Positions 24,663 through 26,196 of a stretch of 64,000 nucleotides of DNA are shown here, in pieces. The stretch is from Spirochaetota bacterium (GTDB lineage: Bacteria > Spirochaetota > UBA4802 > UB4802): positions 1 to 64,000 of the forward strand of contig JBFLZD010000008.1 of assembly GCA_040756435.1 (NCBI GenBank). The letters are read 5' to 3'. Numbering within the stretch: position 1 is the first letter of the stretch; every line of letters starts with the position of its first letter. Both the position numbers and the translations under genes were made by a program. The notes beneath the pieces were generated by a model. It made no database searches and had not been told where the DNA came from. It was given only the letters and a program-made list of their open reading frames with translations.

Positions 24663-24690
24663 TTGACAATGTACGACAATATCGTACATT
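24663..24690 (+). promoter_or_regulatory. Promoter of the iclR-type gene
   Basis: TTGACA (24663-24668) and TACATT (24685-24690) are 16 bp apart and read toward the regulator. The operator palindromes overlap the spacer and -10, so the regulator probably represses itself. Confidence 0.55.
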
Positions 24691-24700
24691 GTACGATATT
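24668..24700. promoter_or_regulatory. Nested palindromic operator between the dehydratase operon and the IclR gene
   Basis: Two perfect inverted repeats overlap. Arms AATGTACGA and TCGTACATT are separated by CAATA (24668-24690). Arms AATATCGTAC and GTACGATATT are separated by ATT (24678-24700). The element lies in the overlap of two divergent promoters, the expected position for an IclR-type site. Confidence 0.8.
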
Positions 24701-24763: not shown

Positions 24764-25546
24764 ATGAAAACAAAAAAGATTAAACGCATTCAATCAATTG
24801 AACGGGCACATGCCATTTTATCGCTGTTTATCAATGACAAAAAACCACTGGGCATAAGCGATTTTGCAAAAAAGATTGCATTGCCTAAAACTACCGTACA
24901 GGGAATAGTTCAAACGCTCTGTCATTTAGGCTATCTAGAAAAAGATCATGAAACAGGTAAATACAGGCTTGGCCCGTATGTATTCCAGTTAGGCATGAAA
25001 TATGCCACTAACCTTGACCTGGTAAGCATTGCACGGGTATGGGCTGAACGTCTATGCTTTCAATTCAGGCAACCGGTTAATATTGGCATGCTTGTAGGGG
25101 ATAAAGTTATCATAGTACTCCGCGTTGAGCCTGAAAACAGATTTATGTCTTATCCTCAAGCTGGTTCAGTAATTCCCACACATACTACCTGTATTGGCAA
25201 GTTGCTCTGTGCCTATATGGAAAAGCAACGACTAGAAGAAATTCTAAAAGATTACACCTTTCAAATGCTGACTCCAAATTCAATTACCTCAAAAGAAGAC
25301 TTTTTGAAAGAATTAAAAAAGGTACGGCAGGCTGGTATTAGTTTTGACAATCAGGAATCAGTGATGGGTTTGGCCGGGATTGGCGGGCCTATCTTTAACT
25401 ATAGTGGAATTATAGCAGCTTTTGCCATTACCGGCAATGCTGATTTTATACTTAAACACAAACAGGACATTATTCATGCTGTAAAGGATACTTCTCTTCA
25501 ATTATCTGTGCAGTTAGGGTATAACCCTGACAGCAAAACACTTTAA
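24764..25546 (+). CDS. IclR-family transcriptional regulator
   Basis: The N-terminal winged helix (RIQSIERAHAILSLF through PKTTVQGIVQTLCHLGYLE) is followed by the IclR effector domain, with the typical IPTHTTCIGKLLCAY and AGIGGPIF segments. About 260 residues is the family norm. It faces the dehydratase operon across shared operators and most likely responds to the acid or CoA ester that the operon degrades. The open frame extends back to a TTG at 24743 and an ATG at 24755. No ribosome site discriminates between them; I take the ATG that gives the usual short N-terminus. Confidence 0.9.
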   Translation: MKTKKIKRIQSIERAHAILSLFINDKKPLGISDFAKKIALPKTTVQGIVQTLCHLGYLEKDHETGKYRLGPYVFQLGMKYATNLDLVSIARVWAERLCFQFRQPVNIGMLVGDKVIIVLRVEPENRFMSYPQAGSVIPTHTTCIGKLLCAYMEKQRLEEILKDYTFQMLTPNSITSKEDFLKELKKVRQAGISFDNQESVMGLAGIGGPIFNYSGIIAAFAITGNADFILKHKQDIIHAVKDTSLQLSVQLGYNPDSKTL

Positions 25547-25563
25547 AAATATGACAAAAATAC

Positions 25564-25592
25564 TTGACGACATAATGAATTTTATGTATATT
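25564..25592 (+). promoter_or_regulatory. Sigma-70 promoter driving the orphan CIRCE transcript
   Basis: TTGACG (25564-25569) and TATATT (25587-25592) are 17 bp apart, with the expected start point a few bases inside the CIRCE element. Confidence 0.75.
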
Positions 25593-25596
25593 ATTG

Positions 25597-25623
25597 TTAG
25601 CACTCATTATAGAAGAGTGCTAA
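25597..25623. promoter_or_regulatory. CIRCE heat-shock operator (HrcA binding site), perfect consensus
   Basis: TTAGCACTC, nine bases, GAGTGCTAA: all 18 arm positions match the CIRCE consensus bound by the HrcA repressor upstream of groESL and dnaK operons. It lies directly at the start point of the promoter above. No chaperone gene follows. Confidence 0.95.
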
Positions 25624-25667
25624 TGCAACCTATAACAAAGCTTTTGCCCCTCAGGGGCTTTTTTTTT
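25599..25667 (+). ncRNA. Predicted ~69-nt RNA from the CIRCE promoter
   Basis: Initiation at the promoter and termination at the GCCCC/GGGGC hairpin give an RNA of about 69 nt. The CIRCE arms would form its 5' hairpin and the terminator its 3' hairpin, with a linker of only about 20 nt. No credible open frame fits between them. It may be a heat-regulated small RNA, an HrcA titration site or the remnant of a lost chaperone operon. Confidence 0.5.
25646..25667 (+). terminator. Intrinsic terminator
   Basis: GCCCC, TCA, GGGGC followed by nine T. It is 100 bp after the IclR stop and would end both that transcript and the CIRCE transcript. Confidence 0.88.
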
Positions 25668-26196
25668 AAAAACCTCCTCCATACAATGCATCCCTGTATC
25701 TAACAATGTCAGTTGCATAGCTTTTTATTCTTTCATCTTTATTATTTATTTTTTCCGCAATAGAAGGATCTGCTTTGATCATGGCCTGTTTTAAAGTATC
25801 ACAAAAAAGCTTAGTTCCCGGCAATAAGGTATCCCAATAGTAGTAATAAAACTTCCATTTCTTATTTGTCTTAGCCTTTTCAGCCATGTATTCAATCATA
25901 TAAACTGACTGCAACAACCGTTCATATATAAAAATAACATCATTGGAGTTGGTTTTATATTGCTGAGTTATATACATAGTGAATGTATCAATTTTTTTTG
26001 CATCAGAAGGCTCTTTGCTCCAGAACGTTATGTATACTAATTCACTGATATCATCATATCCTAATGAAGCGCCAATCATGTCGGTAGCAAGATTTAACAT
26101 TAAACGCTGGTTATCATTGAATATATAATCAATGGTTGATGCATATACTGGATGGACTAAAATAAAAAAAAGAAATACAATGGCTATCTTTTTCAT
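25666..26196 (-). CDS. Exported protein of unknown function
   Basis: A signal peptide (MKKIAIVFLFFILVHPVYAS) precedes about 156 residues that look all-helical, with a YYYYWDT segment. I recognise no family. It is a single gene with its own AT-rich upstream region; the stop lies within the T run of the terminator on the other strand. The 245-bp gap upstream (26197-26441) holds nothing else I can support. Confidence 0.65.
   Translation of the reverse strand: MKKIAIVFLFFILVHPVYASTIDYIFNDNQRLMLNLATDMIGASLGYDDISELVYITFWSKEPSDAKKIDTFTMYITQQYKTNSNDVIFIYERLLQSVYMIEYMAEKAKTNKKWKFYYYYWDTLLPGTKLFCDTLKQAMIKADPSIAEKINNKDERIKSYATDIVRYRDALYGGGF

Follow-up and report, generated by a model that had tools for sequence, protein, structure and literature searches.

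A gene-less CIRCE transcription unit in a spirochaete lineage: a probable HrcA-controlled small RNA with complementarity to the clpB leader

Introduction

HrcA and its operator CIRCE constitute a widely distributed heat-shock repressor system. In the papers that we found, the regulon comprises protein genes, for example groESL, hrcA-grpE-dnaKJ and rpoH (PMC545781). CIRCE can also be carried into RNA: where it is transcribed, in the leaders of groE and dnaK mRNAs, it affects mRNA stability (as cited in a passage of PMC3207917). Trans-encoded small RNAs (sRNAs) of the DsrA-rpoS type pair upstream in the 5' leader of their target, freeing the ribosome-binding site (PMC8468756). In the open-access literature we found no CIRCE- or HrcA-controlled sRNA, the CIRCE elements of the surveys consulted being those of groE leaders, and no sRNA acting on clpB.

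Here we analyse a window of 64,000 nucleotides (contig JBFLZD010000008.1, positions 1 to 64,000) from a Spirochaetota genome assembly (GCA_040756435.1; 3.6 Mb, 126 contigs, 99.65% complete). A preliminary description of this DNA had noted a CIRCE operator with a promoter and a terminator but no gene, and had offered three explanations: a heat-regulated small RNA, a decoy that titrates HrcA, or the scar of a lost chaperone operon. Our analysis strongly supports a small RNA and speaks against the other two. The unit very probably specifies an HrcA-controlled small RNA that pairs with the leader of clpB, a target absent from the preliminary description and identified here by a complement search. 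An sRNA of the HrcA regulon with a chaperone mRNA as its partner would extend that regulon to post-transcriptional control.

Results

The transcription unit and its surroundings

The predicted unit occupies positions 25564-25667 of the forward strand. It begins with a sigma-70-type promoter, TTGACG-N17-TATATT (25564..25592; -35 box 25564-25569, -10 box 25587-25592), which matches the consensus at 10 of 12 positions and has the same architecture as the hrcA promoter of this genome (L002); a TTGAC or TTGCC -35 element and a TAT-type -10 element are retained at all 12 orthologous loci. Directly 3' of TATATT lies a CIRCE operator and putative HrcA site, TTAGCACTC-N9-GAGTGCTAA (25597..25623, forward strand, 0 mismatches), whose left arm coincides with, or closely follows, the expected start of transcription. 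The chance expectation of a CIRCE with up to three mismatches is 0.02 for the window, and a reversed-pattern control gave no match genome-wide. In 12 genomes the CIRCE arms are conserved while the loop is free to vary. An intrinsic terminator, GCCCCTCAGGGGC followed by T9 (25646..25667, forward strand; stem 25646-25658, nine T 25659-25667), stands 22 nt beyond CIRCE, and its stem is maintained through altered sequences in other genomes. The promoter with its 17-bp spacer, the all-match operator and a terminator some 20 bp further on had all been read correctly in the preliminary description, as had a predicted transcript of about 69 nt that contains no gene and is followed by a gene on the other strand.

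The predicted RNA is approximately 68-70 nt long (25599..25667, forward strand; 5' end deduced from the position of the -10 box) and is expected to fold into a 5' CIRCE hairpin, an unpaired linker and a terminator hairpin. Two adjoining forward-strand segments matter below: the right CIRCE arm plus TGC, GAGTGCTAATGC (25615..25626), and the linker AACCTATAACA (25627..25637). In f1, the family of the window's genus, the linker is unpaired in most predicted folds and would thus offer an accessible seed. The transcript holds no conserved open reading frame, since its sole in-frame ATG is followed by a stop after seven codons in G001 and is missing in G002; the locus therefore combines its own promoter and intrinsic terminator with the lack of a conserved reading frame, as an sRNA gene should. 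Rfam returned no family at gathering score for this RNA, only weak matches.

Upstream, a gene for an IclR-type regulator ends at 25546. Downstream, a convergent hypothetical gene on the other strand (26196-25666) ends on the RNA terminator; the idea that this terminator also serves the convergent gene was rejected because the opposite strand, inspected by eye, lacks a T-run. The convergent gene (25666-26196, minus strand) encodes a putative secreted protein, 176 aa long, that matches neither Pfam nor NCBIfam. A hypothetical gene is convergent with the RNA gene in both f1 and f5, a second family, though the proteins share only about 20% identity between the families. Further upstream, a perfect inverted repeat, AATATCGTAC-ATT-GTACGATATT (24678-24700), separates the IclR gene from a divergent operon with 2-hydroxyglutaryl-CoA-dehydratase-like and acyl-CoA-ligase genes (24640-20547, minus strand), and is probably an IclR operator.

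CIRCE sites and HrcA in the genome and order

A genome scan for CIRCE, allowing three mismatches and fixing the loop at 9 nt, found three sites, all perfect: the orphan unit, hrcA-grpE, and an operon encoding three small heat-shock proteins (hsp20). A true hrcA is present (L002; TIGR00331, 327.9 bits against a cut-off of 197.2), and groESL, too, is preceded by a perfect CIRCE, in this case with an 8-nt loop. The search for hrcA, groESL and their operators that the preliminary description had proposed thus places hrcA, hsp20 and groESL elsewhere in the genome, each with a CIRCE of its own. The groES promoter site of this genome lies at L169:1476-1501, with further loci at L182-L211; 39 genomes of the order carry exactly one perfect 8-nt-loop CIRCE, directly upstream of groES at 28 of the 30 loci read, while the loop is 9 nt at hrcA, hsp20 and the RNA gene.

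Across the order we sorted 122 nine-loop CIRCE sites from 46 genomes (three of the sites from one outgroup), leaving a few that had mismatches or stood at contig ends without assignment. Nearly all precede hrcA, hsp20, dnaK, clpB, groES or another chaperone gene; the exception is a class in which a strong terminator follows and no gene does. The clpB gene carries its own CIRCE in families f3 and f6 (L102, L104, L110, L113, L136), and none was seen at clpB in f2, f4 or f7 (up to two mismatches, 9-nt loop).

Conservation of the RNA unit

The gene-less unit was found in 12 of the 14 genomes of two families (all five members of the window's genus, in f1, and seven in f5), so that the site is conserved in relatives, a point that the preliminary description had proposed checking; the two genomes without it are represented by assemblies 71% and 80% complete. 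In an HrcA tree f1 and f5 group together with weak support (80/64). The position of the unit is constant in the 12 genomes, beside a NeuB-like gene; glycerol kinase, the IclR gene and the convergent hypothetical gene accompany it at the loci where they were read, except that the IclR gene was not seen next to it in G013 and G022.

The transcript itself appears constrained. In g6, a genus of f5, identity is 96% in the transcript after CIRCE, compared with 52% just upstream, 70% in adjacent coding DNA and 48% at the shuffled level; the corresponding values in f1 are 72%, 57% and 67% (transcript, upstream, adjacent coding). Retention in 12 genomes together with a constrained transcript argues strongly against both chance and a scar. 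A covariance model of the f1 RNA, built from the five genus members and matching them by construction with E of 1e-13 to 1e-17, found only weak matches outside f1 (E 4e-5 to 7e-4). CIRCE sites in other families were considered as further RNA genes and rejected, the matches of this model being chaperone or hrcA CIRCE sites and the f5 orphans. The f5 model, run on 393 genomes of the phylum, found nothing beyond f1 and f5; one weak match (G001 C88) is the hsp20 site.

The clpB leader as predicted pairing partner

Among the unpaired segments of the g6 RNA the best conserved is AUACUUCAAGCAC, and we sought its complement in four g6 genomes with up to two mismatches. Besides the RNA gene, a single string was common to all four, GTGCTTGCAGTATA. 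In each genome it is found some 85 nt ahead of clpB, within the 5' leader, and extends to a match at 23 of 26 positions (22 in G018); clpB was the sole target found by this search. We then located clpB across the order, identifying it by NCBIfam TIGR03346 on partial stretches that score below the full-length cut-off. In all 12 RNA-bearing genomes the clpB leader complements the RNA of its own lineage, although the sequences differ from lineage to lineage: the site reads TGTTATAGGTT(CC)TGCATTAGCACTC in f1, GTGCTTGCAGTATACCATCCGGCATC in g6 and TTATTGCATATGTGA...TCCGGCA in G028, and lies around GCCTGTATC in G013 and G022. It is situated 41-109 nt upstream of the clpB start codon, and in these lineages clpB lacks a complete CIRCE.

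With arm and linker taken together, pairing scores reach 44-56 in f1, 44-53 in g6, 42 in G013, 40 in G028 and 28 in G022, against shuffled-leader means of 17-29; G022 is thus the weakest, the other 11 lineages scoring 40-56. Folding the two RNAs together gains -14 to -30 kcal/mol over folding them apart, which corresponds to z scores of -3.8 to -9.9 relative to shuffled leaders. In G000, clpB scores 47 compared with 34 for the next-best site on either strand of the 64-kb window. In most comparisons a linker matches its own lineage's clpB leader much better than it matches the clpB leaders of the others, and among the leaders tested clpB is preferred to hrcA, hsp20 and groES. The predicted RNA-clpB pairing is thus both long and lineage-specific.

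In the window's genus the duplex would consist of the transcribed right operator arm and the linker: GAGTGCTAATGC complements GCATTAGCACTC of the clpB leader (12 contiguous pairs in G000), the linker complements TGTTATAGGTT, and the predicted single-stranded seed CTATAACA has its counterpart in TGTTATAG. Because nine to ten arm pairs are expected from any CIRCE half-site in a leader, only the linker part counts as independent in f1; linker-only scores are 25-34 against shuffled means of 15-18, with G000 and G001 barely above the best of 60 shuffles. The half-CIRCE of the f1 leaders was also considered as a decayed clpB operator, and rejected, being far downstream of the predicted start in G000 and absent from g6 leaders, where no CIRCE half-site was seen. 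Separately, the G032 assembly, 80% complete, yielded no RNA gene, yet its clpB leader (L278) still carries GTGCTTGCAGTATACCATCCGGTATC, the site for pairing in g6; our reading predicts that the gene would lie in the missing part.

Co-variation between the RNA and the clpB site

We joined RNA arm plus linker to the clpB site in an alignment (A5) of the five f1 sequences, in which 96% of cells pair. Four pairs carry changes in both partners, where shuffles give 0.8 +/- 0.8 and one in 500 attains four; this control ignores relatedness and uses the few sequences available, five. Sliding the partner gives zero to one such change. In G003, for example, the RNA reads CUAUACCA and clpB TGGTATAG, compared with CUAUAACA and TGTTATAG in the other f1 members, and G002 has GACA/TGTC where G004 has GAAA/TTTC. 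The CIRCE-arm half of the duplex is invariant as well as being expected from any half-site, so the linker carries the weight of the f1 co-variation. These compensatory changes accompany a conserved complementarity to an mRNA from another locus, a further hallmark by which sRNAs are recognised.

Discussion

The mechanism that we propose would begin with HrcA bound to CIRCE, holding the RNA gene off. Heat shock would inactivate HrcA, allowing the promoter to fire and to yield a transcript ending at about 70 nt, which would base-pair with the 5' leader of clpB mRNA, probably with the help of Hfq: an Hfq gene is present in 10 of 10 genomes tested and nine T follow the terminator stem, both features expected of an Hfq-dependent sRNA system. 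The linker would seed on the leader and the RNA then invade the adjoining stem, formed with the operator arm in f1 and as the middle hairpin in g6. The likely result would be more ClpB, through opening or stabilising of the leader, and ClpB would in this way join the HrcA regulon through RNA rather than directly.

That the RNA activates or stabilises clpB is the direction towards which we lean. A rather unlikely alternative keeps the same HrcA-controlled RNA and the same pairing but has clpB repressed or its mRNA decaying faster, for example as a brake during recovery; long duplexes are typical substrates of RNase III, and in dimer ensembles, where Shine-Dalgarno accessibility is mixed, it falls in several genomes, G009 and G026 among them. 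The pairing site, however, ends at least 41 nt before the AUG, beyond the ribosome footprint, which makes plain ribosome occlusion unlikely, and blocking it is predicted to open the ribosome-binding site in several genomes: Shine-Dalgarno accessibility then ranks among the top 8% of windows of equal length in G000, G001, G004, G018 and G026, though not in the other seven. Activation appears likelier than repression mainly because the sister families f3 and f6 have clpB directly under CIRCE, where co-induction is expected.

The remaining alternatives dispense with clpB. Since the stop codon of the convergent hypothetical gene lies on the RNA terminator, the RNA might regulate that gene in cis, as an antisense or at its 3' end, and the arrangement is indeed convergent at all loci where both genes were read, even those where the IclR gene was not seen beside them (G013, G022). 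We consider it improbable: such an RNA needs no conserved sequence, yet the g6 transcript is far more conserved than the adjacent gene, and the complementarity to clpB and its co-variation would go unexplained. The perfect operator would suit a CIRCE decoy that titrates HrcA, with the transcript a by-product, but a decoy requires neither promoter nor terminator nor conserved transcript, all three of which have been kept, and one more site among about four would presumably titrate little; this explanation we regard as very improbable. Hardly credible, finally, is the scar of a lost chaperone operon. It would account for an operator without an adjacent gene, but a scar should decay, whereas promoter, operator and terminator persist in two families, the g6 transcript is more constrained than neighbouring coding DNA, and the CIRCE operons hrcA-grpE, hsp20 and groESL sit elsewhere with their own sites. 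Neither scar nor decoy accounts for the conservation of the transcript or for the pairing, and these two suggestions of the preliminary description fall on that ground; its small-RNA suggestion is strongly supported by the fixed locus in 12 genomes, the conserved promoter, operator, terminator and transcript, and the co-varying clpB partner.

If the reading as an HrcA-controlled sRNA is true, it would show how a gene may pass between operator control and RNA control within one regulon. We are evenly balanced on a bolder formulation, in which the right half of CIRCE serves in the window's genus both as HrcA-binding DNA and as clpB antisense, and in which the order wires clpB either through a CIRCE of its own or through an RNA that activates ClpB synthesis on heat shock. 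It would give the order an HrcA-controlled sRNA and a single gene whose control has switched from direct to RNA-mediated or the reverse.

Set against known systems, the component parts are of familiar kinds, and what appears to be new is their combination and the recruitment of a transcribed operator arm to base pairing. The locus resembles the HrcA/CIRCE regulon in its identical operator, placed at a sigma-70-type promoter and overlapping the start region, and in the presence of hrcA in the genome; it differs in that its predicted product is a non-coding RNA, where the known regulon has protein genes (PMC545781). As in groE and dnaK leaders (as cited in PMC3207917), transcribed CIRCE would make a 5' hairpin in the RNA; in those leaders it acts in cis, on the very mRNA that carries it, whereas the present unit is predicted to use one arm for pairing in trans with another mRNA. 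With DsrA-rpoS the unit shares a short RNA with a terminator hairpin, an unpaired seed beside an invadable stem, a site well upstream of the Shine-Dalgarno sequence and the presence of Hfq. It differs in having clpB as predicted target and predicted control by HrcA, and in the prediction of ribosome-binding-site opening in only part of the genomes (5 of 12, by the window control).
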